Assembly: GCF_017569205.1 (NCBI RefSeq)
Contig: NZ_CP071870.1
Span: 2,232,001-2,296,000, forward strand
Length of the DNA stretch: 64,000 nt
Direction of reading: 5' to 3'
Origin: Propioniciclava sp. MC1595
GTDB lineage: Bacteria > Actinomycetota > Actinomycetes > Propionibacteriales > Propionibacteriaceae
In this document: piece after piece, positions 18,610-55,788 of the stretch
Position numbering within the stretch: position 1 is the stretch's first letter
Layout: the number at the start of each line of letters is the position of its first letter
Notes under the pieces: model-generated
What the model saw: the letters and a program-made list of their open reading frames with translations, nothing else
Told to the model about the DNA's origin: nothing
Database searches by the model: none
Program-made: the position numbers and the translations under genes

Positions 18610-19980
18610 TCAGGCGGCAGCGGCCTCAAGCTCGCGGGCCAGCGCCAGGATGGACGCCCGGGCGGCCGGGTCGGGGATCTTGAGGTAGTCGCACGCCTTC
18701 TCGACCGACTCCTCCAGCGTGCCCTCGCCGAAGCCCTTGACCGCGTCGGCGTTGGCATCCTGGAACGGGGCACCCACGCCGCGCAGGTGCAGCACCCAGG
18801 CGGCCACGGCGCGCTCGGCACCGATCGGCTCGCCGCCCGCGGCGCGCTCGGCGTTCAGCGCGGGCACGATGCGGATCGGGATCTTCACCGAGCCGTCGGC
18901 CGCGATGCGGGCGAGCTGGTCCTTCATGCGGGGGTTCCCGAAGCGCTCGAGCAGGGCGGCGCGGTAGTCGGCGACCTCCTGGGCGGGCAGCGGCAGGTGC
19001 TTCGCGGCGACGTCCCACCAGTCGTTGACCCAGCCGTTGACCACGGGGTCGGAGATGGCCTCGTACACGGTCGGGCGCCCGACGATCGTGGCCGCGTACG
19101 CCATCAGCGAGTGCGAGCCGTTGAGCAGCCAGAGCTTGCGCAACTCGTGCGGGGTGATGTCGTCGACGAAGTTGGCGCCGGCGTCCTCCCAGCGGGGGCG
19201 TCCGGCCCTGAAGTCGCCCGCGATGACCCACTCGGTGAAGGGCTCGGTGGCGACCGCCGCCGGGTCCTCGACGTCGGTGTCGCCGGTGATGGCCTGCAGG
19301 GCCTCCTCCGAGATCGACGGGGTGATCCGGTCGACCATCGTGGTGGCGAAGCCGACGTTCTCCTCGACCCACGCGGCCAGGGACGGGTCGACCAGCACCG
19401 CGACGTCGCGGACCACGTGGGCGACCATCTCGCCGTTGTCGGGCACGTTGTCGCACGGGCAGAAGGTGATCGGGCCCGCACCGGCCTCGCGGCGGACGAT
19501 CAGGCCGGCGGCGAACTTGCCGGGGGCCGTCTTCACGTCGGCGAGGTTCCCGGCCTTGATGGCCTCGATGTCGGCCTGCACGGCCGGGTTGTCGGCGTCC
19601 AGACCGCCGCCGGGCTTGGGCATGTACCCGGCCTCGGTGATGGTCGAGGTGACGATCGCCAGCTCGGGGCTGCGGAAGTACTCGAGCAACTGCTCGACGT
19701 CGGTGCCGGAGTGGGTCGCCGAGAGCGAGCTGATCACCTGGTAGTCGTTGCCCTCGGGGTTCTGCACCACGAGGGTGAACAGGTTGTCCTGCTTCTGCAT
19801 CTCGGGCACGATGCCCAGCGAGCGGCCGGTGAACGCGGCGATGCCCCAGTCGGCGGCGTCGGGCGCACGGTCGGTGTACATCGCCTGGTGGGCGCGGAAG
19901 AAGTTGCCCATGCCGAGGTGGACGATGCGGACGGGGGCGACGGGGCGTCCGTCCTGCGAGCGGGAGAGTCGACGAGCCAC
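18610..19980 (-). CDS. Mannitol dehydrogenase-family NAD-dependent oxidoreductase, probably fructuronate reductase (UxuB-like)
   Basis: A 456-residue polyol-specific long-chain dehydrogenase. The N-terminal nucleotide-binding region contains HLGMGNFFRAHQ, and the family catalytic motif K-x4-N-G-x-H is at Lys282, Asn287 and His290. Family members include mannitol 2-dehydrogenase, D-arabinitol dehydrogenase, fructuronate reductase and tagaturonate reductase. Sequence alone does not decide between them. The linked uronate isomerase (UxaC) points to fructuronate reductase, which interconverts D-fructuronate and D-mannonate. It is divergent from the LarA-family gene across a 180-bp region, and convergent with pyrC. 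Confidence 0.85.
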   Translation of the reverse strand: MARRLSRSQDGRPVAPVRIVHLGMGNFFRAHQAMYTDRAPDAADWGIAAFTGRSLGIVPEMQKQDNLFTLVVQNPEGNDYQVISSLSATHSGTDVEQLLEYFRSPELAIVTSTITEAGYMPKPGGGLDADNPAVQADIEAIKAGNLADVKTAPGKFAAGLIVRREAGAGPITFCPCDNVPDNGEMVAHVVRDVAVLVDPSLAAWVEENVGFATTMVDRITPSISEEALQAITGDTDVEDPAAVATEPFTEWVIAGDFRAGRPRWEDAGANFVDDITPHELRKLWLLNGSHSLMAYAATIVGRPTVYEAISDPVVNGWVNDWWDVAAKHLPLPAQEVADYRAALLERFGNPRMKDQLARIAADGSVKIPIRIVPALNAERAAGGEPIGAERAVAAWVLHLRGVGAPFQDANADAVKGFGEGTLEESVEKACDYLKIPDPAARASILALARELEAAAA

Positions 19981-20160
19981 GAGAGGTTCCTTTCCGAGCA
20001 GCGGTGCAAGGGGTGATCCGTGTTGGTCCCGACCCTAGGCCCCAGCCCGGCCCCACGCGCGCAGTCTCCCGAAGTTGCCACGGCGGCTGCCCCGATTCCC
20101 GCTTCGGCGCGGGCGTCCCGGTCTAGGCTGGCCCCACCGGACCGGACCCAGGAGGCACCC

Positions 20161-21459
20161 GTGAGCACCGACGTCAGCCGCGCACGCACCACCCTCGAGG
20201 CAGTCACCATCGGCGGCCCGCACCAGACCGTCAGCGACGCCGAGCTGGACGCCTTCGTCGCCGAGCAGTTCGCCCGCGTCGACTTCGACGGCAAGAAGGT
20301 CGTGCTGGTCGTGCCCGACGGCACCCGCAGCTGCCCGCTGCGGCTCATGGTCAGCACCGCCCACAAGTACCTCATCGACCGCGTCGCCTCGCTGACCTGC
20401 GTGATCGCCCTGGGCACCCACTCCTACATGGAGCCCGACGAGATCGACGCCTGGTTCGGGATCGGGGAGGGCGAGACCCTGGAGTCGGTCTACCCGGGCA
20501 TGACGATCGTGAACCACGAGTTCCTCGACCCCGAGATGATCGTGGACATCGGCACCCTGACGGCCGCCCAGATCAAGGAGCTGTCGAACGGCTCCATGGA
20601 GGAGGACGTGGTGGTCGAGATGAACCGCCACGTCGTCGAGGCCGACATCAACCTGGTCATCGGCCCGGTGTTCCCGCACGAGGTCGTGGGCATCTCGGGC
20701 GGCAACAAGTACTTCATCCCCGGCTGCTCGACCCACGACGCGATCGACCTCTCCCACTGGGTGGGCGCCCTCATCGGCGTCGAGGACATGATCGGCTCCC
20801 CCGGCGTCACCCCGGTGCGCAAGATCATCAACGCGGGCGTCGACCTGATCCCCAACGACAAGTACGCCCTGTGCATCGTCGTCCAGTCGGGCACGGGCGA
20901 GCTCGAGTCGGCCACCTTCGGCGACACCGAGTCGTCGTGGGCGGACGCCGCGGACATCGCCGCCGAGAGCCACGTCGTCTACGTCGACGAGCCCTTCACC
21001 AAGGTGCTCGCGATGATGCCGACCCGTTACGACGACATCTGGACCGCCGCCAAGGGCTGCTACAAGATGCAGCCGGCCATGGCCGACGGCGGCGAGGTCA
21101 TCATCTACGCGCCGCACGTCACCGAGGTCTCCGAGCAGCACCCCGAGATCTACGACATCGGCTACCACTCGATCCCCTACTTCACCAAGCAGTGGGACAA
21201 GTTCAAGGACGTACCCAAGGGCGTCCTGGCCCACTCGACGCACGTGCGTGGCGCGGGCGACTACGACCCCGAGACGGGCGTCGAGACCAACCGCATCAAG
21301 GTGACGCTGTGCACCCAGATCCCGGAGGAGGTCTGCCGGTCGGTGAACCTCGGCTACCTGCCGCTGGACGCCGTGGACGTCGAGGCGTGGAAGGCCGACC
21401 CCAACGTGTTCGTCCAGGAGAACGCCGGCGAGGTGCTGTACCGCCTGCGCAAGAAGTGA
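20161..21459 (+). CDS. LarA-superfamily nickel-pincer-dependent hydroxyacid racemase/epimerase (DUF2088)
   Basis: A 432-residue protein with the LarA fold signatures: DGTRSCPL near 47-54, the ALGTHSYM motif (LarA GTH-type histidine) near 81-88, and FPHEVVGISGGNKYFIPG near 172-189, which contains the histidine and the lysine that in lactate racemase anchor the nickel-pincer nucleotide. LarA relatives act on lactate, malate, 2-hydroxyglutarate and, as I recall, D-gluconate (2-epimerase). Neighbouring uronate isomerase, UxuB-like and Gnd genes make a sugar acid the likeliest substrate. GTG start chosen, with GGAGGCACCC just upstream. The cofactor maturation genes larB, larC and larE are not in this window. 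Followed by a terminator hairpin. Confidence 0.82.
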   Translation: MSTDVSRARTTLEAVTIGGPHQTVSDAELDAFVAEQFARVDFDGKKVVLVVPDGTRSCPLRLMVSTAHKYLIDRVASLTCVIALGTHSYMEPDEIDAWFGIGEGETLESVYPGMTIVNHEFLDPEMIVDIGTLTAAQIKELSNGSMEEDVVVEMNRHVVEADINLVIGPVFPHEVVGISGGNKYFIPGCSTHDAIDLSHWVGALIGVEDMIGSPGVTPVRKIINAGVDLIPNDKYALCIVVQSGTGELESATFGDTESSWADAADIAAESHVVYVDEPFTKVLAMMPTRYDDIWTAAKGCYKMQPAMADGGEVIIYAPHVTEVSEQHPEIYDIGYHSIPYFTKQWDKFKDVPKGVLAHSTHVRGAGDYDPETGVETNRIKVTLCTQIPEEVCRSVNLGYLPLDAVDVEAWKADPNVFVQENAGEVLYRLRKK

Positions 21460-21470
21460 GGCCCTGACAC

Positions 21471-21502
21471 GAGCGGCCCCCGGATCACTCCGGGGGCCGC
21501 TC
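21471..21502. terminator. Terminator between the LarA-family gene and lacI-type gene
   Basis: Perfect 14-bp stem GAGCGGCCCCCGGA / TCCGGGGGCCGCTC with a 4-base loop, followed on the plus strand by GTTGCGTGTTG. It separates two convergent genes and can serve both. Confidence 0.88.
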
Positions 21503-21522
21503 GTTGCGTGTTGGGTCCGGGG

Positions 21523-22527
21523 TTACGCAGGTCCGGTGCTGTGCCGGACGATGAGCCGCACGGGCACGGAGACCGGGGCGGTCTCGGCCGACTTGTGGCC
21601 GGCCAGCGACGACACGACGTAGCGCACGGCCGAGTCGCCCAACATGGTCAGCGGGGCGGCGACGGTGGTGAGCCCGGGGGTCACCAGCGCGGAGGCGAAG
21701 ATGTTGTCGAAGCCGATGATGCTGATCTGTTCGGGCACCTTGATGCCGCGCTCGGCCAGGCCCTGCATGAGGCCGATCGCCATGAGGTCGTTGAAGCACA
21801 CGACGGCCTTCAGCCGGCGGGCGGCGATGACCTCGGCGGCGCCGCGACCGCCCTGCAGGGTGGGCGCGAAGGGGCCGACGCGGTGTTCAGTGAAGCCCAG
21901 CTCCTTGGCCGAGTCGCGCATCGCGCGCCAGCGCATGCCGTCGGCCCAGGACGCCTCGGGCCCGGCCAGGTAGGTGATGTTGCGGTGGCCGAGGGCCAGC
22001 AGGTGCTCGGTGGCCTTGCGGACGCCGTGGGCCATGTCGGGGATGATGCAGTGCAGGCCGGCCACGCGCCGGTTCAGGATCACCACGGGAAGTTGCTTGG
22101 CGACCGTGCGCAGCTCGGTGTCGGACAGCCGGGAGCTGGCCACGATCAGGCCGTCGAGCAGCGGCAGGGAGCGGCGCAGCATCTCACGCTCGAGCGCCTC
22201 GGACTCCTGCGCGTCGTTCAGGGTGACCACGAAGCCCGCCTCGGCGGCCGCAGCCTGGCAGCCACGGATCACACGGAAGTTGAAGGGGTTGGTGATGTCG
22301 GCCACCGCCAGGCCCAGCACCTTGGTGGTGCTCTTGGCCGCCGTCCGGGACACCTCGCGGCTCCGGTAGCCCAGCTCCTCGGCGACCTGCCGGATCTTCT
22401 CGGCCGTCTGGGCGCTCACCCGGCCCGGGCGCGAGAAGGCGCGTGACACGGTGGAGGGGCTCACACCGGCGACGCGTGCGACGTCGTAGATGGTGGCATC
22501 TGACCCCGTGCCCGGCTCATTGACCAT
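21523..22527 (-). CDS. LacI-family transcriptional regulator of the sugar-acid locus
   Basis: A 334-residue repressor/activator. Residues about 11-65 form the LacI helix-turn-helix with IYDVARVAGVSPSTVSRAFS and the hinge-type YRSREVSRTAAKS; the rest is a periplasmic-binding-protein-like effector domain (LGLAVADITNPFNF, IIGFDN, TTVAAPL). The start is the ATG giving MVNEPGTGSD. It lies between the LarA-family gene (convergent) and uxaC (same strand, upstream), and its own promoter region carries the GTTGC repeats also seen between uxaC and gnd, suggesting autoregulation and control of the locus. The effector is probably a hexuronate or aldonate, inferred from context only. Confidence 0.9.
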   Translation of the reverse strand: MVNEPGTGSDATIYDVARVAGVSPSTVSRAFSRPGRVSAQTAEKIRQVAEELGYRSREVSRTAAKSTTKVLGLAVADITNPFNFRVIRGCQAAAAEAGFVVTLNDAQESEALEREMLRRSLPLLDGLIVASSRLSDTELRTVAKQLPVVILNRRVAGLHCIIPDMAHGVRKATEHLLALGHRNITYLAGPEASWADGMRWRAMRDSAKELGFTEHRVGPFAPTLQGGRGAAEVIAARRLKAVVCFNDLMAIGLMQGLAERGIKVPEQISIIGFDNIFASALVTPGLTTVAAPLTMLGDSAVRYVVSSLAGHKSAETAPVSVPVRLIVRHSTGPA

Positions 22528-22540
22528 GGTCGAAACCCTA

Positions 22541-22563
22541 GCAACCCGGCAACTCCGTGCAAC
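22541..22563 (-). promoter_or_regulatory. Candidate operator: GTTGC direct repeats upstream of the lacI-type gene
   Basis: On the minus strand this reads three GTTGC units (GTTGCACGGA-GTTGCCGG-GTTGC) with the first two spaced exactly 10 bp apart, about 14 bp upstream of the LacI-family start. A very similar array lies between uxaC and gnd. Shared sequence at two promoters of one locus suggests a regulator binding site; no classic LacI palindrome is evident. Confidence 0.4.
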
Positions 22564-22576
22564 GAAGTTTGGAGAA

Positions 22577-22627
22577 CTTCCGGCCCCGGGCGGACGAGGG
22601 TACCCTTCGCCCGCCCGGGGCCGGAAG
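22577..22627. terminator. Terminator downstream of uxaC
   Basis: Long GC-rich hairpin with arms CTTCCGGCCCCGGGCGG and CCGCCCGGGGCCGGAAG around a 17-base loop. It is between the uxaC stop (22645) and the LacI-type start (22527), both on the minus strand, and is followed in that direction by TCTCCAAACTTCG. Confidence 0.85.
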
Positions 22628-22644
22628 CGCCGGGGAGTGCCCGA

Positions 22645-24063
22645 TCAGCTGGGGATGTTGAAGGCCTTCCTGGGCAGCGTCGAGGTCAGGTCGAACGCCG
22701 TCTGCTCGGCCTCGTCGATCTCGAGGCGGCCCTCGACGACCAGCTCGGCCAGATGCGAGACGTCGCACCGGCGGGCGACGTCGTGGCGGGCCGGGATCGA
22801 CATGAACGCGCGGGTGTCGTCGATGAAGCCGGTCGTCTTGTAGAAGGTGCCGTACTCGGTGAGCGCCTTGCGCCAGCGCTTGATCGCGTCCGGCGCGTCG
22901 ATGAACCACCACGGGGGGCCGACGTACACGGACGGGTAGAACCCGGCGAGCGGGCCGACCTCGCGGCTGTAGACGGTCTCGTCCATGCCGAACAGGATGA
23001 TGCGGAAGTTCGGGTGCGTCCCGAACGCGTTCAGGACCGGGCGGAGGGCCTCCACGACCTCGAAGCTGAGCGGGATGTCGCCTCCGACGTCGGCGCCGAA
23101 CCGCTCGAACGTCGGCTGGTGGTGGTTGCGGGCCACGGCCGGGTGGTAGGTCATGACGAGGCCGTCGTCGGACGCCATCCGGGCCTGCTCGAACATGAAC
23201 GCGCGGCGCAGCGCGGTGCACTCCTCCGCGGACGCCTCGCCCCGTCGGGCGCGCGCGTAGACGGCCTCGGCGTCCTCGAGCGGGGCCATGACCATGTCGA
23301 CGTGGGCGTGGTCGGTCGAGGTGGCGCCCATGCTCTTGAAGAACGCGCGGCGGTTCTCCATGGCCGACACCCAGCCACCCCACGTCCCGGTGTCGATGCC
23401 CGTCTTCTCGGCGAGGGCGTCCATGAGGTCGTTCCAGTCCTCGCGCGCGGGCTCGAGGTACTTGTCGGGACGGAAGGTCGGCACGACCGTGCGGGTGAAC
23501 GACGCGTCGTCACGGAGCTTGGCGTGGTGCTCGAGGTCGTCCAGGGGGTCGTCGGTGGTGGCGATGAACTCGATGTCGAAGCGGTCCATGAGCGCGCGCG
23601 GACGGAACTCCGGGGTGCGCAGCTTCTCGGCGATCGTGTCGTAGATCCGGTCGGCCGTCTCCTCCGACGGGCGCACGTCGACACCGAAGATGTCGACCAG
23701 CTCGGCCTCCATCCAGAACTTCATCGGGGTGCCGCGGTAGAGGTACCAGTGCTTGCAGAAGATCCTCCAGGCGTTGCGGGCCTGCTCCGCGCTGAAGTCG
23801 TCGCGGCCCATGGGCACGCCCAGGTCGGCCAGGTCGACGCCCTGGCCGTGCATGATGCGGTTGACGTAGTGGTCGGGCGTGAGCAGCAGGTTGGTCGGGT
23901 CCGGGAACTCGAGGTCGTCCGCGATCCACACCGGCGGGACGTGGCCGTGCGGCGAGAGGATCGGGAGGTCCTTGATCTGCTCGTAGAGCTTGCGGGCGAC
24001 CGCGCGCGTCTGCGGTTCAGCCGGGAACAGCCGGTCGGGATTCAGGGTCAACGGCACTGTCAT
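22645..24063 (-). CDS. uxaC: Uronate isomerase (glucuronate/galacturonate isomerase)
   Basis: Amidohydrolase-superfamily isomerase converting D-glucuronate to D-fructuronate (or D-galacturonate to D-tagaturonate). The 472-residue product has the hallmark N-terminal PILSPHGHVPP metal-binding motif (about 32-42), then the HWYLYRGTP segment, FIATTDDPLDDLEHH and MTYHPAVARNHH further on, all conserved in UxaC. Start set at ATG 24063 (MTVPLTLNPDRLF). It is divergent from gnd across 138 bp containing GTTGC repeats. No hexuronate transporter, UxuA or KDG kinase gene is nearby. Confidence 0.95.
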   Translation of the reverse strand: MTVPLTLNPDRLFPAEPQTRAVARKLYEQIKDLPILSPHGHVPPVWIADDLEFPDPTNLLLTPDHYVNRIMHGQGVDLADLGVPMGRDDFSAEQARNAWRIFCKHWYLYRGTPMKFWMEAELVDIFGVDVRPSEETADRIYDTIAEKLRTPEFRPRALMDRFDIEFIATTDDPLDDLEHHAKLRDDASFTRTVVPTFRPDKYLEPAREDWNDLMDALAEKTGIDTGTWGGWVSAMENRRAFFKSMGATSTDHAHVDMVMAPLEDAEAVYARARRGEASAEECTALRRAFMFEQARMASDDGLVMTYHPAVARNHHQPTFERFGADVGGDIPLSFEVVEALRPVLNAFGTHPNFRIILFGMDETVYSREVGPLAGFYPSVYVGPPWWFIDAPDAIKRWRKALTEYGTFYKTTGFIDDTRAFMSIPARHDVARRCDVSHLAELVVEGRLEIDEAEQTAFDLTSTLPRKAFNIPS

Positions 24064-24092
24064 GCCCGCCATTCTGTCCCGCATCCGCAGTT

Positions 24093-24117
24093 GTTGCAGG
24101 GGGTTGCCGGGGGTTGC
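24093..24117 (+). promoter_or_regulatory. Candidate operator: GTTGC direct repeats between uxaC and gnd
   Basis: Three GTTGC units start at 24093, 24103 and 24113, exactly 10 bp apart (GTTGCAGGGG-GTTGCCGGGG-GTTGC), and match the array upstream of the LacI-family gene. Ten-bp spacing places them on one face of the helix. They sit in the divergent uxaC/gnd promoter region and could control both genes. Confidence 0.45.
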
Positions 24118-24201
24118 GGCGCTTTGGGGGCAAAACGCCTCCGGGTCCGGAGAGCTGGGGCAAGATGAGGCGTGATCGGTCCCCAACAGAAGGAAGCACA
24201 C

Positions 24202-25650
24202 ATGAGCGAGAAGACTGGCATCGCGCAGATCGGCGTCGTCGGCATGGCGGTCATGGGCTCCAACCTGGCCCGCAACTTCGCCAGCAAGGGCTTCAAGACC
24301 GCGATCTTCAACCGGTCCTACGCCAAGACCGCGGCCGTCCTCGAGGCCCACCCCGAGGCCGAGTTCGTCGCCTCCGAGTCGGTCGAGGAGTTCGTCGACT
24401 CCCTCGAGAAGCCCCGCCGCATCATCATGATGGTCAAGGCCGGCCCCGCAACCGACGCCACGATCGAGGCGCTCCTGCCCTTCCTGGACCAGGGCGACAT
24501 CGTCATCGACGGCGGCAACACCTACTTCCCCGACACCCGTCGCCGGGAGAAGATGATGGCCGAGAAGGGCTTCAACTTCATCGGCTGCGGCATCTCCGGC
24601 GGTGAGGAGGGCGCGCTGCTCGGCCCGTCGATGATGCCCGGTGGCCCGAAGGACTCCTACGCCCACGTCGGCCCCATCCTCGAGAAGGTCGCCGCCCAGT
24701 ACGACGGAGAGCCCTGCTGCACCTGGATCGGCACCGACGGCGCCGGCCACTTCGTGAAGATGGTGCACAACGGCATCGAGTACGCCGACATGCAGTTCAT
24801 CGGTGAGGCCTACGACCTGCTCAAGGGCGTCGGGCTGTCCGCCGCCGAGGCCGCCGACGTCTTCGCCCAGTGGAACACCGGCGACCTCGACTCCTACCTG
24901 ATCGAGATCACCTCCGAGGTGCTGCGCCAGGTGGACGCCGAGACCGGCAAGCCGCTCGTCGACGTGATCGTGGACGCCGCCGGCATGAAGGGCACCGGCA
25001 CCTGGACCGTGCAGGAGGCGCTGAACCTCGGCGTCCCGGCCGCGGCCATCGCCGAGTCCGTCTTCGCCCGCGCCGCCTCCAGCTCGCCCGAGCTGCGGCA
25101 GGCCGCCCGCAAGGCCCTGACCGGCCCTGACGGCACAGTGCAGGTCGACGACCGCGACGCCTTCGTCGAGGACGTCCGCCAGGCCCTGTGGTCGGCGAAG
25201 GTCATCGCGTACGCCCAGGGCCTGCACCTGATCAAGGTCGCCGGCCAGGAGTACGGCTGGGACATCGACGTGGCCGCCTGCGCCCGCATCTGGCGCGCCG
25301 GCTGCATCATCCGCGCCAAGCTGCTCGACCGCATCTCCAACGAGTACGCGGCCGGCAACCTGGAGACCCTGCTCGAGGCCCCCTCGATCAGCCAGGGCCT
25401 GGCCGACGCCAACGGGTCGTGGCGCCGCGTCGTGGCCAAGGCCACCGAGGCCGGCGTGCCGATCCCGGGCTTCGCCTCGGCGCTGTCGTACTACGACATC
25501 GTCCGCGCGGACCGCACCAACGCCGCCATGACGCAGGGGCTGCGCGACTTCTTCGGGTCGCACACCTACAAGCGGATCGACAAGGAGGGTACGTTCCACA
25601 CCAACTGGAGCGGTGACCGCACCGAGTCCGAGGCCGTCGACACCCACTGA
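24202..25650 (+). CDS. gnd: 6-phosphogluconate dehydrogenase (decarboxylating)
   Basis: Oxidatively decarboxylates 6-phosphogluconate to ribulose 5-phosphate, normally with NADP. The 482-residue length is that of the long homodimeric form. Features include the Rossmann motif VVGMAVMGSNLARNFASKGF (about 12-31), the family signature region with GISGGEEGA (about 132-140), and the catalytic lysine in GHFVKMVHNGIEY. The ATG at 24202 lies behind AAGGAAG. In this locus it stands divergent from uxaC, and so may be induced with sugar-acid use. A gluconate kinase is not visible in the window. Confidence 0.95.
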   Translation: MSEKTGIAQIGVVGMAVMGSNLARNFASKGFKTAIFNRSYAKTAAVLEAHPEAEFVASESVEEFVDSLEKPRRIIMMVKAGPATDATIEALLPFLDQGDIVIDGGNTYFPDTRRREKMMAEKGFNFIGCGISGGEEGALLGPSMMPGGPKDSYAHVGPILEKVAAQYDGEPCCTWIGTDGAGHFVKMVHNGIEYADMQFIGEAYDLLKGVGLSAAEAADVFAQWNTGDLDSYLIEITSEVLRQVDAETGKPLVDVIVDAAGMKGTGTWTVQEALNLGVPAAAIAESVFARAASSSPELRQAARKALTGPDGTVQVDDRDAFVEDVRQALWSAKVIAYAQGLHLIKVAGQEYGWDIDVAACARIWRAGCIIRAKLLDRISNEYAAGNLETLLEAPSISQGLADANGSWRRVVAKATEAGVPIPGFASALSYYDIVRADRTNAAMTQGLRDFFGSHTYKRIDKEGTFHTNWSGDRTESEAVDTH

Positions 25651-32639: not shown

Positions 32640-35450
32640 GTGACCACCGTCGCCGCCGACACGATCCCTGGCCTGGACGACAGCACCCTGACGCGGGCCC
32701 TGTACTCCACCGACGCCTCGCTCTACCGCGTCGTCCCGCAGGGGGTCGCCCACCCGCGCACGGTCGGTGAGCTCGAGGCCGTCGTGGACGCCGCGCGCGC
32801 GGCCCGCGTGCCCCTCACCACCCGAGGCGCAGGGACGTCCTGCGCCGGGAACGCGGTCGGCCCCGGCGTCGTCGTCGACGTGGCCCGCCACCTCACCGCC
32901 ATCCACGCCATCGACGCCGAGGCACGCACCGCCGTCGTCGACCCCGGCGTCGTGCAGGACGTGCTGTCCCGCACCGCCCAGCAGGTCGGCCTGCGCTACG
33001 GCCCCGACCCCTCCACGTTCACCCGCTGCACGATCGGCGGCATGATCGGCAACAACGCCTGCGGCCCACGCGCGCTGGGGTACGGCCGCTCCTCCGACAA
33101 CGTCGTCGCGCTCGACGTCATCACCGGCACCGGCGAGCGGCTCAGCCTCGACTCGCGGGCCGACCTCACGGCGTCCGACTCCCCCACGCTGCGGGCGCTG
33201 CACGAGCTGGTCATGGCCAACCTGGGCACCATCCGCACCCAGTTCGGCACCTTCTCCCGGCAGGTGTCGGGCTACTCGCTGGAGTGGCTGCTGCCCGAGA
33301 ACGGCTTCGACGTCGCCAAGTTCCTCGCCGGCAGCGAGGGCACCCTCGCGGTCATCACCCGCGCCACCGTGCGGCTCGTGGCCGACGCCCCGTACAAGAC
33401 CATGCTCGCCCTCGGCTACCCGACGATGCCGGACGCCGCGGACGCCATGCCGGCGATCCTCCCCTTCTCCCCCACCGCCGTCGAGGGGATGGACCGGCGC
33501 ATCGTCGACGTCGTCTCCCGCGCTCTGGGGGCGGACGCCGTGCCGCGCCTGCCCGAGGGCGACGGCTGGGTGTTCGTCGAGTTGGCCGACGACGACGTCG
33601 ACCGCCTGGCCGAGCGTGCCCGGGGACTGCTCGCGGCGTCCGGCTGCCTGGACGGCGAGGTGGTGGACGACTTGGTCGTCGCCGCCGCCCTGTGGAAGAT
33701 CCGCGCCGACGGCGCGGGCCTGGCCGGGGTCAGCCTGGAGCGGCCCGCCCACGCCGGCTGGGAGGACGCCGCCGTGCCGCCGGCCCGCCTGGGCGACTAC
33801 CTGCGCGACTTCGACGCACTGCTGCGCCGGCACGAGCTGCAGGGGCTCCCCTACGGCCACTTCGGCGACGGCTGCGTGCACTGCCGCATCGACTTCCCGC
33901 TCACGCAGGTCCCCGACGGGGCCGCCCGCTACCGGGCCTTCATCGAGGAGGCGGCCGACCTGGCCGCGTCCTACGGGGGGTCGATGTCGGGCGAGCACGG
34001 CGACGGCCGAGCCCGCTCCGAGCTCCTCCCCCGGATGTACTCCCCCGAGGCCCTGGAGCTGTTCGCGGCTGTCAAGCGCATCTTCGACCCCGACAACCTG
34101 CTCAACCCGGGCGTCCTGGTCGACCCCGCGCCCTTCGACGCCGACCTCCGCGCGCCGACGATGCGGCGCTCCCCGCTGTTCCGTACGCACCGCCAGTTCG
34201 TCGACGACGTGCACCGCTGCACCGGCGTCGGCAAGTGCGTCGCCTCGACCGGCAGCCACGTGATGTGCCCCAGCTGGCAGGCCACGCGCGAGGAGAAGGA
34301 CGCCACCCGCGGCCGGGCCCGCGTCCTGCAGGAGATGGTCAACGGCACGCTGGTGACCGACGGCTGGCGCTCGGCCGAGGTGCACGCGGCGCTCGACCTG
34401 TGCCTGTCCTGCAAGGGTTGCTCGCGCGACTGCCCCACCGGCACCGACATGGCCGCCTACAAGTCGCGCGTGCAGTACGAGGCCTTCAAGGGCCGGCTGC
34501 GCCCGCGCGACCACTACACGATGGGCTGGCTGCCGATGTGGGGGCGCCTGGTCTCCTCCAACCCCGTGTTTCCCAGGCTGATGAACGTCGTGATGCAGAC
34601 CCCGGGCATCACCAACGTCCTCAAGCTCGTGGCCGGCATCGACCAGCACCGCGGCATGCCCCGCTTCGCGAAGGGCTCGAACCGCGCGGCCGCCCGCGCC
34701 CAGGTCGAGGGACGCCGTGCCCTGCCCGGCGCGGCCCCGACCGCCAAGGGCGAGGTCGTGCTCTGGGTGGACTCCTTCAGCGACGCCTTCGAGGGCGACC
34801 ACGTCGCGGCGATGGCCGCCGTGCTCATCGAGAACGGCTGGACGCCCCGCCTGCTCGAGCGCAAGGCCTGCTGCGGCCTGACCTGGATCACGACGGGCCA
34901 GCTCGACGGTGCGGTCAAGGAGCTCCGCAACGCCACCGACGTGCTCCACGAGTACGTCTCCCGCGGGGCGAAGATCGTGGGCACCGAGCCCAGCTGCATC
35001 GCCGTGTGGCGCTCCGACGCCCTCGAGCTCCTCCACGACGACCCCCGGGTCGCCGAGGTCGCCGCCAACGTCGTCACGCTCGCCGAGTTCCTCGCGGCCG
35101 ACCCCGACTTCACGATGCCCGACCTGACCGGGCACACCGTGGTCGCGCAGCCGCACTGCCACGAGGCGTCCGTCATGGGCTGGGCCGCGGAGCAGCGGCT
35201 GCTGGTCGCCTCGGGCGCGACGATCGTGCGCGTCAACGGGTGCTGCGGCCTGGCCGGCAACCACGGCATGATCGCCGGGCACTACGACTTCTCAGTGAAG
35301 GTCTTCGAGACCAACCTCGGCCCCGCGCTCGACGCCGCCCCCGCGGGCGCGATCGTGCTGGCCGACGGGTTCTCCTGCCGCACGCAGCTGCAGGACCTCC
35401 AAGCGCGTCAGGCCCTCACCTTCGCCGAGCTGCTGGTCGCCCACGCATGA
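32640..35450 (+). CDS. Fused FAD-binding oxidase / Fe-S dehydrogenase (D-2-hydroxyacid dehydrogenase type)
   Basis: A 936-residue single-chain enzyme joining a GlcD/Dld-like flavoprotein and a GlcF-like Fe-S subunit. Order of domains: FAD_binding_4 (about 35-250, with TTRGAGTSCAG and the GGMIGNNACGPRALGYG signature), FAD-oxidase C-terminal domain (to about 500, ending GDGRARSELLPRM), two 4Fe-4S cysteine clusters (CTGVGKC near 526 and CLSCKGCSRDCPTG near 587), and two CCG-type cysteine motifs (ACCGLTW, NGCCGLAGNHG). Such enzymes oxidise D-lactate, glycolate or D-2-hydroxyglutarate and pass electrons to the membrane quinone pool. GTG start, 5 bp after the MarR gene. Substrate not decidable from sequence. 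Confidence 0.9.
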   Translation: MTTVAADTIPGLDDSTLTRALYSTDASLYRVVPQGVAHPRTVGELEAVVDAARAARVPLTTRGAGTSCAGNAVGPGVVVDVARHLTAIHAIDAEARTAVVDPGVVQDVLSRTAQQVGLRYGPDPSTFTRCTIGGMIGNNACGPRALGYGRSSDNVVALDVITGTGERLSLDSRADLTASDSPTLRALHELVMANLGTIRTQFGTFSRQVSGYSLEWLLPENGFDVAKFLAGSEGTLAVITRATVRLVADAPYKTMLALGYPTMPDAADAMPAILPFSPTAVEGMDRRIVDVVSRALGADAVPRLPEGDGWVFVELADDDVDRLAERARGLLAASGCLDGEVVDDLVVAAALWKIRADGAGLAGVSLERPAHAGWEDAAVPPARLGDYLRDFDALLRRHELQGLPYGHFGDGCVHCRIDFPLTQVPDGAARYRAFIEEAADLAASYGGSMSGEHGDGRARSELLPRMYSPEALELFAAVKRIFDPDNLLNPGVLVDPAPFDADLRAPTMRRSPLFRTHRQFVDDVHRCTGVGKCVASTGSHVMCPSWQATREEKDATRGRARVLQEMVNGTLVTDGWRSAEVHAALDLCLSCKGCSRDCPTGTDMAAYKSRVQYEAFKGRLRPRDHYTMGWLPMWGRLVSSNPVFPRLMNVVMQTPGITNVLKLVAGIDQHRGMPRFAKGSNRAAARAQVEGRRALPGAAPTAKGEVVLWVDSFSDAFEGDHVAAMAAVLIENGWTPRLLERKACCGLTWITTGQLDGAVKELRNATDVLHEYVSRGAKIVGTEPSCIAVWRSDALELLHDDPRVAEVAANVVTLAEFLAADPDFTMPDLTGHTVVAQPHCHEASVMGWAAEQRLLVASGATIVRVNGCCGLAGNHGMIAGHYDFSVKVFETNLGPALDAAPAGAIVLADGFSCRTQLQDLQARQALTFAELLVAHA

Positions 35451-47063: not shown

Positions 47064-47872
47064 AGGGAAAGGTCGTCTTCGTCGGGGCCGGTCCAGGCGC
47101 CCCCGACCTGATCACGGTGCGCGGCGCGCGCGTCCTCGCCGAGGCCGACATCATCATCTGGGCGTCCTCGCTGGTCAGCCCCGATCTGGTCGCCGGCCAC
47201 AAGCGCGGTGCCGAGTTGATCGACTCCGCCTCCGCCTCGCTGGAAGACCTCACCCCGCTGTACGAGCGGGCCCGCGACGAGGGCCTGCTGGTGGCTCGGG
47301 TGCACACCGGAGACCCGGCCATCTACGGGGCCACCGCCGAGCAACGCGACCAGTGCCGCGCGGTCGGCATCGCGTTCGAGTCGATCCCGGGGGTGTCCGC
47401 CTTCTCGGCGGCTGCCGCCGCGGCGGAGGTCGAGTTGACGCTGCCCGAGGTGGCCCAGTCGTTGATCCTCACCCGCCTCGAGGGCGGCCGGACGCCCATG
47501 CCGCCGCGCGAGCGCGTCCGGGAATTTGCGCGCCACGGCACCACGATGGCGCTGTACCTGTCGGCCGCGCGCAACCGGGCCCTGCAGGAGGAACTGCTCG
47601 CCGGCGGGTACCCGCCCGAAACGCCCGTGATCATCGGGCACAAGGTGAGCTGGCCCGACGAGGTGCTGATTCGGTGTCGTCTGGACGAGCTGTCGGCCAC
47701 GATGAAGGACCACCACTGGTGGAAGCACACGGTGATCCTGGTCGGCCCTGCCCTGGCCGAGGCCCCCGTGGCGAAGCGCTCGCACCTGTACCACCCCGGT
47801 TTCCGGCACGAGTACCGTGCCGCCGACCCGGACGCCGCCGACGACCTGCGCACGAAGGGGGCCCGGGCATGA
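47060..47872 (+). CDS. cobM: Precorrin-4 C11-methyltransferase (CobM/CbiF)
   Basis: Methylates C11 of the corrin precursor. A 270-residue class III methyltransferase with FVGAGPGAPDLITVRG, VHTGDPAIYGATAEQ and IPGVSAFSAAAAA motifs, all standard for CobM/CbiF, and the substrate region LTRLEGGRTPMPPRE typical of this subfamily. The GTG start overlaps the cobI stop and the stop overlaps the next ATG, giving tight coupling. Confidence 0.95.
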   Translation: MKGKVVFVGAGPGAPDLITVRGARVLAEADIIIWASSLVSPDLVAGHKRGAELIDSASASLEDLTPLYERARDEGLLVARVHTGDPAIYGATAEQRDQCRAVGIAFESIPGVSAFSAAAAAAEVELTLPEVAQSLILTRLEGGRTPMPPRERVREFARHGTTMALYLSAARNRALQEELLAGGYPPETPVIIGHKVSWPDEVLIRCRLDELSATMKDHHWWKHTVILVGPALAEAPVAKRSHLYHPGFRHEYRAADPDAADDLRTKGARA

Positions 47873-50349
47873 TCACCGTGTTCGGCTACCTGGGCTCCCC
47901 CCGCCCTTCGCTGGTGGACGCCCTCGCCACAGCTTCCCTGGTGGTCGGCGGGCTGCGCCATTTGGACGCGCTCGGCGTCCCGGAACCCCGACGCGTGGTC
48001 CTGGGTCCCATCACCCCGGCGATCGAGGCACTGTCTGCGTTGCAGGACGGCGAGGACGCCGTGGTCATCGCGTCCGGCGACCCACTGTTCTACGGCGTCG
48101 TGCGGCGGATCCGCATGGCAGGACTGCCCGTGCGTGTCGTGCCCGAGGTGGGCTCGCTGCCGGCCGCGTTCGCCGCAGTGGCCCTGCCCTGGGACGACGC
48201 CCTGTTCGTGTCCGCCCACGGCAATGACCCGACCCCGGCGCTGTTGGCGTGCGGGGAGCACCCGAAGGTCGGCGTCCTGACCGACCACCGGACGGGACTG
48301 CCACAGATCGTCTCTGCGACCACCGGGCTGGGGCGCTGGTACGTGTTGGCCGAGCGGCTGGGCGAGGCCGACGAGCGGGTCCGCGTGCTGAACGAAGCCG
48401 AAGCGCTGCGCGTCACCGAGCCGGCCCAGCCACACGTGGTGCTGGTGCTGGCCCACCATCCTGATGACCCCGCGGCCCTCGGCACCCAGTCCGGCCTCGC
48501 CGGCGCGGCCCCCGCGGCCACCCGTCCGGCGTCGGCACCGGCCCCGGTGCGCCCCGCTGACCGTGCCGCCCGCGTGCTCGGCCAACTCACCAACTCTCCC
48601 GCCGCGCGGGCCCACGCCGACGCCATCGATGCAGCCCTGGGGGCGACTCGGCGCTACGACGGCAAGGCGTCCGAGCACCTCGCCGCCGCGTGGGCCGAGT
48701 GCGACCTGATCATCAGCCACCTCGCCCTCGGCGCCACCACCCGGCTGATCGCGCCCCTTCTCGCCGACAAGAAGACCGACCCGGGCGTGGTGGTGGTCGA
48801 CGAGGCCGCTGCGTTCGTCGTGCCCCTGGTCGGTGGACACGTCGGCGGCGCCAATGAACTGGCCCGCCGAGTAGCGGACATCCTCGGCGCGACCCCGGCG
48901 GTCACCACGGCCACCGACGCCACGGGTATCCCGGGACTGGACACACTCGGCTGGGCCACCTCCGGCGATCTCGCCGGCGTCACCCGCGCCCTGCTCGACG
49001 GGGCGCCCGTGCAACTTGTCCGCGAACAGCCGTGGCCGCTCCCGCCGCTGCCGACGAACGTCCGCGAGCCGGGGGTCGCGCGCGTTGAGCGCCGAGGTAC
49101 CCACGAGACCGAGCTCCCCGATCTCGGCGACCCGGCCGCCCGCATCGTGGTCTCGGACGCTGAGGCTCCGCCGCCCGACTCCGCCGCCCACGACCTGCCG
49201 ACCGTGACCCTCCACCCCAAGAGCCTGGTCGTCGGCATGGGCTGCAACCGCGGCACTCCTGCCACCACGCTCGACGCCCTGCTCAGCCAAACCCTCGCCG
49301 AGAGCGGGTGGGCGCGGGCGTCGATCACGGCGCTGACCAGCGTGGACGCCAAGGCCGACGAGCCGGGCCTGATCCAGCTGGCCGCCCAACTCGGGGTGCC
49401 GTTCATCACCTACCCCGCAGACGTCCTCGCGGACGTCACCGTCCCCAACCCGAGCGACGCCCCGCAGGCGGCGGTGGGCACGCCGAGCGTGGCGGAGGCG
49501 TCCGTGGTCGCGCACGGAGCGGACCTCATCGTCGAGAAGCACAAGAATGGCGAGGCGACCATCGCGATCGGCCGAATCGCCCCCACCGGCACGCTGGCCG
49601 TCGTAGGGCTCGGCCCGGGTGCCGACGACCTGTTGACGCCCCGCGCCCGCGACGTCCTGCGCGCATCCGCCGTGGTGGTCGGGTACCGGCCCTATGTTGC
49701 GCAGATCCGGCATCTGTTGCGCCCCGGAACCGAGATCATGGCCATCGGCATGGGCACCGAGGAGCACCGCATCGAGTTCGCCATCGCCAAGGCCCGGGAG
49801 GGCCGCTCGGTGTCGCTGGTCTGCGGCGGCGACCCGGCGATCTACGCGATGGCCTCACCGCTGCTCGAGAAGGGCACCGGGGGCGTGGACGTCCAGGTGG
49901 TGCCGGGCGTGACCGCTGAGTTGGCGGCGTCGGCGATCCTCGGTGCGCCGCTGGGGCACGACCACGTCACGATCTCGCTCAGCGACCTGCACACCGATTG
50001 GTACACCATCGAGCGTCGCCTGCAGGCAGCAGCCGACGGCGATTTCGTGGTCGCGCTGTACAACCCGCGCAGTAAGAAGCGGCTGGCGCACCTGCCCCGC
50101 GCCCTGGAGATCCTGGGCGCACGGCGTCCACCCACGACACCGGTCGCCGTCGTGCAGGATGCCTCCCGCCCGAACCAGAACCACCGCGTCGCCGCGCTGG
50201 CCGACTTCGACCCGGACTGGGTCGACATGCACTCGATCGTGATCGTGGGATCGTCCACGACCAAGCTCGTGCCGACGGGACAAGGGGCGTCCGCGATGGT
50301 GACCCCGCGGGACTACCACTGGATGAACCCCGACAAGGAGCCCCTGTGA
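47869..50349 (+). CDS. cbiEGH: CbiE-CbiG-CbiH triple-domain corrin biosynthesis protein
   Basis: An 826-residue fusion of three enzymes. Residues about 1-195 are CbiE, the C5-methyltransferase (VVGGLRHLDAL, VIASGDPLFYG, DALFVSAHG). About 235-565 is CbiG, cobalt-precorrin-5A hydrolase, which opens the ring A lactone and releases acetaldehyde (KASEHLAAAWAECDLIISHLALGATTR, GGHVGGANELA, VVGMGCNRGTP, VDAKADEPGL). About 570-826 is CbiH/CobJ, the C17-methyltransferase and ring-contraction enzyme (AVVGLGPGADDLLTPRA, CGGDPAIYAMASPLLE, VPGVTAELAA, YNPRSKKR). CbiG and early cobalt insertion are marks of the anaerobic route. Linkers are Ala/Pro-rich. Overlaps neighbours on both sides by 4 bp. Confidence 0.95.
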   Translation: MITVFGYLGSPRPSLVDALATASLVVGGLRHLDALGVPEPRRVVLGPITPAIEALSALQDGEDAVVIASGDPLFYGVVRRIRMAGLPVRVVPEVGSLPAAFAAVALPWDDALFVSAHGNDPTPALLACGEHPKVGVLTDHRTGLPQIVSATTGLGRWYVLAERLGEADERVRVLNEAEALRVTEPAQPHVVLVLAHHPDDPAALGTQSGLAGAAPAATRPASAPAPVRPADRAARVLGQLTNSPAARAHADAIDAALGATRRYDGKASEHLAAAWAECDLIISHLALGATTRLIAPLLADKKTDPGVVVVDEAAAFVVPLVGGHVGGANELARRVADILGATPAVTTATDATGIPGLDTLGWATSGDLAGVTRALLDGAPVQLVREQPWPLPPLPTNVREPGVARVERRGTHETELPDLGDPAARIVVSDAEAPPPDSAAHDLPTVTLHPKSLVVGMGCNRGTPATTLDALLSQTLAESGWARASITALTSVDAKADEPGLIQLAAQLGVPFITYPADVLADVTVPNPSDAPQAAVGTPSVAEASVVAHGADLIVEKHKNGEATIAIGRIAPTGTLAVVGLGPGADDLLTPRARDVLRASAVVVGYRPYVAQIRHLLRPGTEIMAIGMGTEEHRIEFAIAKAREGRSVSLVCGGDPAIYAMASPLLEKGTGGVDVQVVPGVTAELAASAILGAPLGHDHVTISLSDLHTDWYTIERRLQAAADGDFVVALYNPRSKKRLAHLPRALEILGARRPPTTPVAVVQDASRPNQNHRVAALADFDPDWVDMHSIVIVGSSTTKLVPTGQGASAMVTPRDYHWMNPDKEPL

Positions 50350-51587
50350 ACAACCCTGCGCTCGTCATCGCGATCCACGGCACCCGCTCCGCCGAGGGCC
50401 AGGCCGTCGGCCGCGCCCTCACACAGCGGGTGGCCGCCATGCTGTCCGACGTCGACGTCCGGGACGCCTACGTCGAGCTCGACACCCCCACCATCGCCGA
50501 TGCGCTGGCGTCCGCGCTCGAGACGCAGCCCGACCGACGCGCCGTCGTCGTGCCGCTGATGCTGGGCCAGGGCGGCCACGTGTTGGAGGACATCCCTGAG
50601 GCGGTCGCCGAGGGCCGCGCCCGTGTGGGTTCCGCGACGGTCATCACGACCCCGCACCTGGGCCCGGACTCCCGCCTGCGCGCGGCCGTCATCGAGCGCG
50701 TCGCGGCGCAGCTCGGCGACTGGACGCCCGAGCAGGTCGGCGTCGTCTTCCTCGGTCGCGGGTGTTCGGTGACCCGGGCCAACGCCGATCACGCGCGCCT
50801 GACCCGGGTTGTCGGGGAGGAGGGCGGTTACGGGTTCACGGTGCCCGCCTACATCCAGGTGGTGCGTCCGTCGCTGATCGACGCGCTGAACCAGCTCAAG
50901 GCGGTGGGGTTCCAGCGCATCGTGATCGCGCCGAACTACATGTTCCCCGGCCGGCTGCAGAACTCGGCGGCCAAACAGGCGGCAGACTGGGCGACCAACC
51001 ACGGGATCGAGGTCCGGCTGGCCGACGTCATCGGCGACTGCGACGCTCTGGCCGAGGTCGTCGTCGACCGCTATCGGACGGGCGCCGCCAAGGCATCGGC
51101 CGGGCGGCGGGGACTGCACACATCGTCCGGGGAAGGTTCGCCGATGTACCTGGCCGGGCTCGACCTGCGCGGCCGCCGGGTGCTCATGGCCGGTGCGGGC
51201 ACGGTCGCCGCACGCCGCGTTCCCGCACTGCTCGCCGCGGGCGCCGATCTGCACGTCGTCGCCCTCGCTGCCTGCCCCGACCTCGAGGCCTGGGCGTCCG
51301 GTGGTGCCCTCACGCTTGAGCTGCGTCCGGTGAAAGAGTCCGACGTGGAAGGCGCCCGGTACGCCATCGCCGCCACCGACGATCCGGACGCCAACGCGAT
51401 GGTCGCCGACGCCTGCGAGGCGCGTGGCATCTTCTGCGTGCGCGCCGACCGGTCCGACGCCGGCACCGCCCGGACGCCGGCCACCGGCACATTCGAGGGC
51501 CTCACCGTGGGCGTCATCGGCGACCGCGTGCCCCATCGCTCGAAGCGGGCCCGGGACGCCGCCGTCGCGGCCATCGCGTCCTTGTGA
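50346..51587 (+). CDS. cbiX: Sirohydrochlorin cobaltochelatase CbiX fused to precorrin-2 dehydrogenase (Met8/CysG N-terminal type)
   Basis: A 413-residue bifunctional protein. Residues about 1-245 are a long, two-module CbiX: IHGTR with the metal His in the first half and a related second half (VVFLGRGCS, IVIAPNYMFPGRL). After a linker, residues about 262-413 form an NAD-dependent precorrin-2 dehydrogenase: MYLAGLDLRGRRVLMAGAGTVAARRVPALLAAGA, then IAATDDPDANAMVADACEARGIFCVRAD. Together they turn precorrin-2 into sirohydrochlorin and insert cobalt early. The GTG start overlaps the cbiEGH stop (GTGA). In this fold the short dehydrogenase lacks the CysG dimerisation/chelatase tail. Confidence 0.92.
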   Translation: MNNPALVIAIHGTRSAEGQAVGRALTQRVAAMLSDVDVRDAYVELDTPTIADALASALETQPDRRAVVVPLMLGQGGHVLEDIPEAVAEGRARVGSATVITTPHLGPDSRLRAAVIERVAAQLGDWTPEQVGVVFLGRGCSVTRANADHARLTRVVGEEGGYGFTVPAYIQVVRPSLIDALNQLKAVGFQRIVIAPNYMFPGRLQNSAAKQAADWATNHGIEVRLADVIGDCDALAEVVVDRYRTGAAKASAGRRGLHTSSGEGSPMYLAGLDLRGRRVLMAGAGTVAARRVPALLAAGADLHVVALAACPDLEAWASGGALTLELRPVKESDVEGARYAIAATDDPDANAMVADACEARGIFCVRADRSDAGTARTPATGTFEGLTVGVIGDRVPHRSKRARDAAVAAIASL

Positions 51588-51983: not shown

Positions 51984-52232
51984 ATGTCGACCAGCACCAT
52001 CACCGTCTACAGCAAGCCCGCCTGCGTTCAGTGCACGGCAACCTACCGCGCCATGGACAAGCTCGGCCTCCACTACGAGGTGATCGACCTCGCCGAGGAC
52101 GAGGCTGCCCTGCTCGACGTGATGGCGATGGGCTACCAGCAGGTTCCGGTCGTGGTCGACGGCGATGACCACTGGGCCGGTTTCCGCCCGGACCGCATCA
52201 AGGCTGCGGCGCAGCGCCTCCACGTCGCCTGA
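51984..52232 (+). CDS. nrdH: Glutaredoxin-like NrdH redoxin
   Basis: Electron donor for class Ib ribonucleotide reductase. The 82-residue protein has the glutaredoxin-like fold with active site CVQC (Cys14 and Cys17), the QQVPVVV cis-Pro segment and the C-terminal [10 protein letters not shown] motif typical of NrdH, which is reduced by thioredoxin reductase rather than glutathione. ATG behind GAGGAGAG. First gene of nrdHIEF, under the cobalamin riboswitch. Confidence 0.96.
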
Positions 52233-52246
52233 GCGCGCGACCTGCC

Positions 52247-52629
52247 GTGCGCGTCGTCTACTTCTCGTCGGCGTCGGAAAACACCCACCGCTTCGTGCAG
52301 AAGCTGCGGGTGGATGCCGCCCGCATCCCGCTGCGCGCCCACGATGAGCCGCTGACGGTCCAGGATCCGTACGTGCTCATCGTGCCGACCTACGGGGGCG
52401 GCAACACCGGCGGGGCTGTGCCCAAGCAGGTGATTCGGTTCCTCAACAACCCGGACAACCGGGCCCTCCTGCGCGGGGTGATCTCCGCCGGTAACACCAA
52501 CTTCGGCGAGGCCTACTGCCTGGCCGGCGACATCGTGGCCCGCAAGTGCCACGTGCCGCACCTCGACCGCTTCGAACTGCTGGGCACGCCCGACGACGTC
52601 GAGCGCATCCACGAAAGGCTCTTGCACCC

Positions 52630-52633
<4 letters not shown>
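52247..52633 (+). CDS. nrdI: Class Ib ribonucleotide reductase flavodoxin NrdI
   Basis: Flavodoxin-like protein that generates the oxidant used to build the dimanganese-tyrosyl cofactor in NrdF. The 128-residue product shows [15 protein letters not shown] (FMN phosphate loop), [23 protein letters not shown] and [21 protein letters not shown] start 14 bp after nrdH; its stop overlaps the nrdE ATG. Confidence 0.95.
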
Positions 52634-55784
<3,151 letters not shown>

Positions 55785-55788
55785 GCGA

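Follow-up and report, generated by a model that had tools for sequence, protein, structure and literature searches.

A recurrent actinobacterial locus and its probable use of a LarA-family epimerase to bring glucuronate into the pentose phosphate pathway

The subject of this analysis is a run of five genes in Propioniciclava sp. MC1595, an actinomycete of the family Propionibacteriaceae whose genome (GCF_017569205.1) is assembled as one 3.43-Mb contig. The window, meaning the whole stretch of DNA that was analysed, is 64,000 nucleotides long (positions 2,232,001 to 2,296,000 of NZ_CP071870.1), and the genes occupy positions 18,610 to 25,650 within it. They encode a glucuronate isomerase (UxaC), a dehydrogenase resembling fructuronate reductase (UxuB), a nickel-pincer enzyme of the LarA family, a LacI-family regulator, and a 6-phosphogluconate dehydrogenase (Gnd). 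The grouping is not due to chance, since it recurs across actinobacterial genera and families. A sequence-only reading had proposed that the locus feeds hexuronates into the pentose phosphate pathway by way of a LarA-family 2-epimerase, and it is this proposal that is weighed here.

Genes and sites at the locus

Domain and NCBIfam scans find all five genes where the sequence-only reading had put them. The features, in window coordinates, are the following:

18610-19980, minus strand: UxuB-like long-chain dehydrogenase, probable D-fructuronate reductase (Mannitol_dh 140.7 bits, Mannitol_dh_C 91.9 bits; role from context)
20074-20079, plus strand: single GTTGCC half-site in the divergent uxuB/larA region (motif match)
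20161-21459, plus strand: LarA-family nickel-pincer enzyme, probable D-mannonate/D-gluconate 2-epimerase or 6-phosphomannonate 2-epimerase (Lar_N domain; nearest to 4NAR; key residues kept)
21523-22527, minus strand: LacI-family regulator, probable repressor of the locus (LacI and Peripla_BP_3 domains)
22549-22563, minus strand: GTTGC-N5-GTTGC repeat before lacI (exact motif match)
22645 to 24063 or 24072 (two possible starts), minus strand: UxaC, glucuronate isomerase (NCBIfam 529.7 bits, cut-off 387)
24093-24117, plus strand: three GTTGC words in 10-bp steps, making two overlapping GTTGC-N5-GTTGC repeats, in the uxaC/gnd gap (exact motif match)
24202-25650, plus strand: Gnd, decarboxylating NADP-dependent 6-phosphogluconate dehydrogenase (TIGR00873 698.1 bits, cut-off 413)

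The identities of UxaC and Gnd are secure, as both come from curated models. The dehydrogenase scores 254.1 bits with the fructuronate reductase model (cut-off 603) and 252.7 bits with that of D-arabinitol dehydrogenase (cut-off 600), and because these scores nearly tie, its role is taken from gene context. With that identity from context, genes for UxaC, a fructuronate reductase-like enzyme, a relative of the gluconate epimerase GntE and Gnd stand together at one locus. The larA gene starts with a GTG at 20161, preceded by AGGAGG.

The LarA-family protein carries the Lar_N domain (PF09861, 71.2 bits). Its best match among six NCBIfam models is hexonate 2-epimerase group 18 (NF052594, 173.2 bits), compared to 86 and 63 bits with the malate racemase models and 57 with that of lactate racemase. 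By sequence, the nearest solved structure is 4NAR at 220 bits, the next ones reaching 29 and 26. An AlphaFold model of the protein (predicted local distance difference test score, 89.6) has LarA-family entries as its top structure matches and is again nearest to 4NAR (template modelling scores 0.86/0.88, with other LarA-family structures at no more than 0.74 by query length). Both comparisons were made against solved structures. The 4NAR entry is GntE2 of Thermotoga maritima, a demonstrated D-mannonate/D-gluconate epimerase according to the work that showed GntE activity in vitro (PubMed Central [PMC] article PMC7583248). A eukaryotic GntE is also described (PMC11770544).

Residues D53, R56, H87, H173, K183, H199, and K298 correspond to D72, R75, H108, H174, K184, H200, and K298 of LarA. 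These catalytic and cofactor residues are conserved in 110 of 110 full-length members of the clade (116 were collected, and 6 under 380 amino acids were left out), and so are the E174-V175 loop and W294. An E-V/S loop after the catalytic histidine, together with a tryptophan in helix 11, is described as the signature of hexonate groups 18, 19, and 20 (PMC7583248). The nearest named relative, at 94% identity, is from Propioniciclava sinopodophylli. Judged by sequence and predicted fold, the protein goes with the hexonate epimerases and not with the lactate or malate racemases, in agreement with the placement on which the sequence-only reading depended. Elsewhere in the genome, larC, larE, and larB lie consecutively at about 1,410.1-1,413.0 kb, all three above their NCBIfam cut-offs, and therefore the nickel-pincer cofactor can be made.

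Neighbours of LarA and its exchange with UxuA

The recurrence of the cluster was followed in the best 80 of 565 confirmed matches in public genomes, nearly all of which bear actinobacterial titles. Two of the 80 had no called LarA; the other 78 and the window make up 79 loci, in which a neighbour is a gene within nine genes of LarA and the names of gene families come from scanned representatives, not from each member. UxaC is a neighbour of LarA in 45 of these loci, UxuB in 44, both in 40, and LacI in 39. At least one of the cofactor genes larB, larC, and larE is found in 34 loci, Gnd in 20, a kinase of the FGGY family in 14, beta-glucuronidase in 9, a GPH transporter in 8, and a PfkB-type kinase in 3. 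One of the cluster transporters exceeds the glucuronide-transporter cut-off (552.1 vs 528 bits), and two of the beta-glucuronidases are above the cut-off of their model. Across 120 loci and the window, with 1868 called genes in all, no UxuA-like protein was found.

Several arrangements are especially tight. In a Knoellia locus (L100), Gnd, an FGGY kinase, and LarC are consecutive with gaps of at most 1 bp, beside LarA, UxaC, UxuB, and a beta-glucuronidase. In Streptomyces sp. B-S-A6 (L092), the genes for an FGGY kinase, UxuB, and UxaC share 4-base overlaps, and in three further loci (L082, L104, and L111) Gnd is followed after 15-16 bp by LarE and then LarB. As a separate observation, LarA orthologs of Kribbella and one Streptomyces-titled relative (L132, L136, L139, L144, and L146) have a conserved neighbourhood of their own, free of hexuronate and lar genes and made up of a flavin monooxygenase-like gene, a cystathionine beta-synthase, and a GDSL lipase.

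The relation of LarA to mannonate dehydratase (UxuA) was surveyed in 97 genomes of the family, taking at least 48% identity as the mark of a LarA ortholog and counting genomes without regard to kinship. LarA matches are present in 49 genomes: 43 have orthologs, 1 has a fragment, and 5 have distant relatives only (30-33% identity). UxaC occurs in 57 of the 97 genomes, and UxuA above cut-off in 20. Of the 57 genomes with UxaC, 42 have LarA, as does 1 of the 40 without UxaC. Among the UxaC-bearing genomes, UxuA is present in 6 of the 42 with LarA compared to 9 of the 15 without (Fisher 0.0013, kinship ignored).

Gene position is more telling than presence or absence. In 31 of 42 genomes, no more than 6 kb separates LarA from UxaC. 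For UxuA, the corresponding count is 7 of the 9 genomes that lack LarA vs 0 of the 6 that have it (genes on different contigs were scored as not near, which concerns 5, 1, and 2 of these genomes, respectively). LarA and UxuA thus replace each other beside UxaC. Six UxaC genomes have neither gene, and four of them (G002, G021, G043, and G060) carry a distant LarA relative of 30-33% identity, which might be a further LarA group serving that role.

The host genome itself has no UxuA (PF03786) match at an E value of 0.001 in its single contig, while 5 of 14 control genomes do match. It also has no match above cut-off to Edd (TIGR01196). Matches to this model occur in 93 of the 97 family genomes, none above cut-off; because of this, and because all 14 controls match as well, they are interpreted as relatives of IlvD. 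Only the window gnd exceeds the TIGR00873 cut-off in this genome, with one shorter gnd-like match elsewhere. In the control genome of Corynebacterium glutamicum, UxaC and LarC were matched, and UxuA and PF01081 were not. The Entner-Doudoroff pathway is described as absent from that organism (PMC2230225).

A promoter repeat, and other features of the window

The intergenic regions before the cluster genes share a short word. GTTGCC is their top 6-mer, occurring 192 times where controls from the same loci predict 38, and it is present in 111 of 169 target regions compared to 73 of 474 controls. For these figures, identical regions were collapsed to one, and similar regions of related species, as well as species present in both genome sets, were kept. 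Pairs of GTTGC favour a spacing of exactly 10 bp (49 pairs, with 8 at the next spacing), and inverted pairs of the form GCAAC-N2-GTTGC number 10. The word is found in 33 of 36 larA/uxaC regions, 10 of 11 larA/uxuB, 10 of 12 gnd/lacI, 10 of 13 uxaC, 17 of 25 lacI, 3 of 4 gnd/uxaC, and 5 of 9 regions before gnd alone, with 72 of 454 in the controls. Before larC (0/8), larE (1/8), larB (0/4), and the FGGY kinase (0/1), it is rare or missing.

The 64-kb window holds three exact copies of GTTGC-N5-GTTGC (0.04 expected), a number reached in 0 of 100 shuffles: one copy precedes lacI and two overlapping copies lie between uxaC and gnd. The LacI protein probably controls uxaC, gnd, uxuB, larA, and its own gene through GTTGC-type sites, and would do so by binding this repeat.

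Other searches for a site were less productive. The classical LacI palindrome with a central CG was found in 23 of 282 regions, compared to about 9 in letter shuffles, and in none of the three window regions, and was dropped. Comparing promoters in pairs for shared 18-mers gave mostly noise but did reveal the repeated GTTGC word, and the aligned uxuB/larA regions of six Propioniciclava were uninformative. One-mismatch copies of the motif in the stretches of the host genome that were compared (for example, in L184 and L193) have neighbours not clearly linked to the pathway and were set aside.

Away from the locus, the lowest G+C content of the window (0.647 compared to about 0.72) is at 52000-56000, where the class Ib ribonucleotide reductase genes are located (52630-55784). 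Genes for cobalamin biosynthesis at 47869-51587 include a CbiG/tetrapyrrole-methylase fusion and a CbiX/NAD-binding fusion. At 32640-35450 lies a 936-residue flavin adenine dinucleotide-linked oxidase whose cysteine-rich C-terminal half resembles, by eye, a fused iron-sulfur subunit like that of certain D-lactate-type dehydrogenases.

The predicted route, its rivals, and known systems

The reactions of UxaC, UxuB, and Gnd are established at the family level, and their application to this locus is inferred. UxaC would convert D-glucuronate to D-fructuronate, which the UxuB-like enzyme would reduce to D-mannonate. The nickel-pincer LarA-family enzyme would then invert C2 to give D-gluconate, bypassing mannonate dehydratase, and a kinase would turn the gluconate into 6-phosphogluconate, from which Gnd would form ribulose 5-phosphate by oxidative decarboxylation. 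The exchange of UxuA for LarA, the gluconokinase-like kinases of related clusters, and the motif at gnd lend support to the proposed entry of hexuronates into the pentose phosphate pathway through LarA. A route of this kind, with the epimerase and the kinase in either order, is given a probability of roughly 85%, and the same route with the epimerase acting first is the version toward which we lean. We infer every substrate, the kinase, the order of epimerase before kinase, and the binding of the motif by LacI from gene families, gene context, and promoter sequence. Most likely the locus sends glucuronate through LarA in this way, and the conserved clusters suggest that such a route is frequent among actinobacteria.

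The kinase is the step that the locus does not supply; as the sequence-only reading had noticed, no gluconate kinase gene is present in the window. In the host genome, no thermoresistant gluconokinase (TIGR01313) is found at an E value of 0.001, and there is no ortholog of the FGGY kinase found in clusters of relatives. The three host proteins with an FGGY_C domain are one glycerol kinase, one xylulokinase-like protein below cut-off, and one without an assignment. This orphan, at 288,977-290,494 of the genome (L184, 5978-7495), has near-equal xylulokinase and gluconokinase scores, far under both cut-offs. It is present in 23 of the 97 family genomes, comprising 18 of the 43 with LarA and 5 of the 54 without, and absent from three LarA-bearing genomes of the same genus (G034, G052, and G082). 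By sequence and distribution it may be considered a candidate for the missing kinase, not an answer. Of 14 PfkB matches in the host, eight were compared with the cluster kinases (one in an unchecked frame), and only the one resembling a kinase of 2-keto-3-deoxygluconate (KDG) matched the cluster PfkB of relatives, at 29%.

Relatives do carry kinases in their clusters. For the FGGY kinase, the gluconokinase model gntK_FGGY is the best in 6 of 6 scanned, and a PfkB-type kinase lies near UxaC, LarA, or Gnd in a few relatives. In three loci (L059, L060, and L061), Gnd, a PfkB kinase, and LarA are in a row with a GPH symporter and lar genes nearby; two of them (L060 and L061) add a beta-glucuronidase, and all three are without adjacent UxaC and UxuB. 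This variant cluster suggests a different type of kinase.

A number of points weigh against the LarA route. The host LarA, at 173.2 bits, is under the 500-bit cut-off of NF052594 and for this reason is not filed in group 18, and the UxuB-like enzyme is below cut-off for both of its models, whose scores do not discriminate between the two roles. The window gnd is the only full gnd in the genome and therefore also has a housekeeping role. No gluconokinase was recognised in the host by TIGR01313, FGGY, and a partial PfkB comparison; 18 of the 43 LarA genomes, three of them of this genus, lack all three kinase types sought; GntK is rarer with LarA (9/43) than without (25/54); and all six FGGY kinases that were scanned fall below the gntK_FGGY cut-off of 648.55. 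Six LarA genomes carry UxuA too (five of the six are of one genus), 14 of the 79 loci have no partner gene at all, and the motif is weak in regions that serve larA or uxuB only (13/35 and 4/15). In addition, GntE1 of C. glutamicum has a Michaelis constant (KM) of 120 mM for mannonate, and its authors questioned whether this is the native substrate, suggesting aldarates such as glucarate or mannarate (PMC7583248).

A rival reading has the kinase acting first. In that case, 6-phospho-D-mannonate would be made and LarA would be a 6-phosphomannonate/6-phosphogluconate 2-epimerase feeding Gnd, without free gluconate. Such an order is demonstrated in Lactobacillus suebicus (PMC6978723), and it would suit cluster kinases that look like gluconokinases yet score below the cut-off. 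All 110 full-length clade members carry S359, T360, H361, R378, and H327, positions that the alignment pairs with V, I, N, E, and D in 4NAR; the clade-specific residues fit a phosphorylated substrate without showing it. A substrate of this kind would explain both them and the 120 mM KM of GntE1 for free mannonate (PMC7583248). However, GntE2 of T. maritima acts on free mannonate (PMC7583248), and the available parts of PMC7583248 and PMC11770544 hold no LarA enzyme with a phosphorylated substrate. The kinase-first order is a minority possibility, and it is similarly doubtful that the actinobacterial LarA clade is the missing 6-phosphomannonate 2-epimerase type.

Another host enzyme could instead dehydrate mannonate to KDG for a KDG kinase and aldolase, leaving LarA to some other hydroxyacid, such as the aldarates put forward by the authors of GntE1 (PMC7583248). 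The sequence-only reading had listed no UxuA and no KDG genes. This is true of the locus, and no UxuA is recognised genome-wide, but genes for a KDG-kinase-like protein and a 2-keto-3-deoxy-6-phosphogluconate (KDPG) aldolase do exist elsewhere in the genome. At about 883.3-886.0 kb, a galactonate dehydratase is followed by an Eda-family aldolase (161.7 bits to TIGR01182, cut-off 156.05) and a kinase-like gene for KDG or 2-keto-3-deoxygalactonate (152.2 bits, under its cut-off of 400), a row from which a broad dehydratase could serve mannonate. The dehydratase, though, is above its galactonate cut-off (550.4 vs 311 bits) and reaches only 211.3 bits with the ManD model, below the 550 required. 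The group is taken as a separate galactonate operon outside the locus, and its stretch of about 880.2-886.0 kb (L180, 12248-17986) has no copy of GTTGC-N5-GTTGC within one mismatch. Remote, placed behind a galactonate dehydratase, and lacking the promoter repeat, the KDG genes show no sign of co-regulation with the locus, and the presence of UxuB beside LarA and Gnd suits mannonate and 6-phosphogluconate, not aldarates. We consider dehydration to KDG improbable. By eye, a binding protein and two permeases precede the galactonate dehydratase.

It is more improbable still that the genes are neighbours without a common pathway, the dehydrogenase acting on a polyol and gnd being purely a housekeeping gene, since against the equal D-arabinitol dehydrogenase score and the lack of a second full gnd stand the 40 of 79 loci in which UxaC and a UxuB-like gene occur together near LarA, some with a 4-base overlap, and the motif before gnd (5/9 alone, 10/12 with lacI, 3/4 with uxaC) compared to 72/454 in controls.

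If the LarA route is correct, it provides a likely in vivo role for a widespread group of actinobacterial nickel-pincer enzymes, of which the C. glutamicum relative has been assayed with its role left unsettled. Many actinobacteria with UxaC and without UxuA would be predicted to send glucuronate into the pentose phosphate pathway, starting in some relatives at a beta-glucuronidase. The yield would be pentose phosphate and reduced nicotinamide adenine dinucleotide phosphate (NADPH) instead of pyruvate and glyceraldehyde phosphate, and nickel would be required. The clusters also narrow the search for the missing genes of mannonate kinase and 6-phosphomannonate epimerase.

Compared to the Ashwell pathway (UxaC-UxuB-UxuA-KdgK-KdgA), the window locus has the first two steps in common, and a LarA-family gene occupies the place of the missing UxuA. 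The closest precedent is in T. maritima, for which a GntE/GntK/Gnd route from mannonate through gluconate to 6-phosphogluconate has been proposed from genome context, with gnd-uxaRED-gntEK in the UxaR regulon (PMC3750489, PMC6978723). Common to the two systems would be a GntE of the LarA family and gnd sharing a single hexuronate regulator. The T. maritima system differs in its GntR-family UxaR, in serving galacturonate and pectin through UxaE, in having gntK in the operon, and in a separate kdgA-kdgK-uxuB-uxuA operon; the host genome is without a recognisable UxuA, the locus has no kinase and a LacI regulator, and the relatives include lar cofactor genes and beta-glucuronidase inside the cluster. 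In L. suebicus, mannonate is phosphorylated before a 6-phosphomannonate 2-epimerase acts, the genes being unidentified, and likewise ends as 6-phosphogluconate for 6-phosphogluconate dehydrogenase; that pathway differs in putting the kinase first and in serving galacturonate and the phosphoketolase pathway (PMC6978723). GntE1 (LarAH19) is an actinobacterial hexonate epimerase of the LarA family, as the window protein probably is too; its authors remarked on the uronic-acid genes in its context and left the native substrate open (PMC7583248).

The pathway is thus known in outline, and with the T. maritima proposal and the kinase-first version of L. suebicus preceding it, the route is less novel than the sequence-only reading implied. 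No paper on the actinobacterial cluster was found in searches of open-licence PMC papers, and those on Propioniciclava and on the growth of C. glutamicum with glucuronate yielded nothing of use. The apparent novelty lies in how widely the cluster is spread and how it is organised in actinobacteria, in the replacement of UxuA, in the promoter motif, and in the joining of cofactor, kinase, and glucuronidase genes to the cluster.

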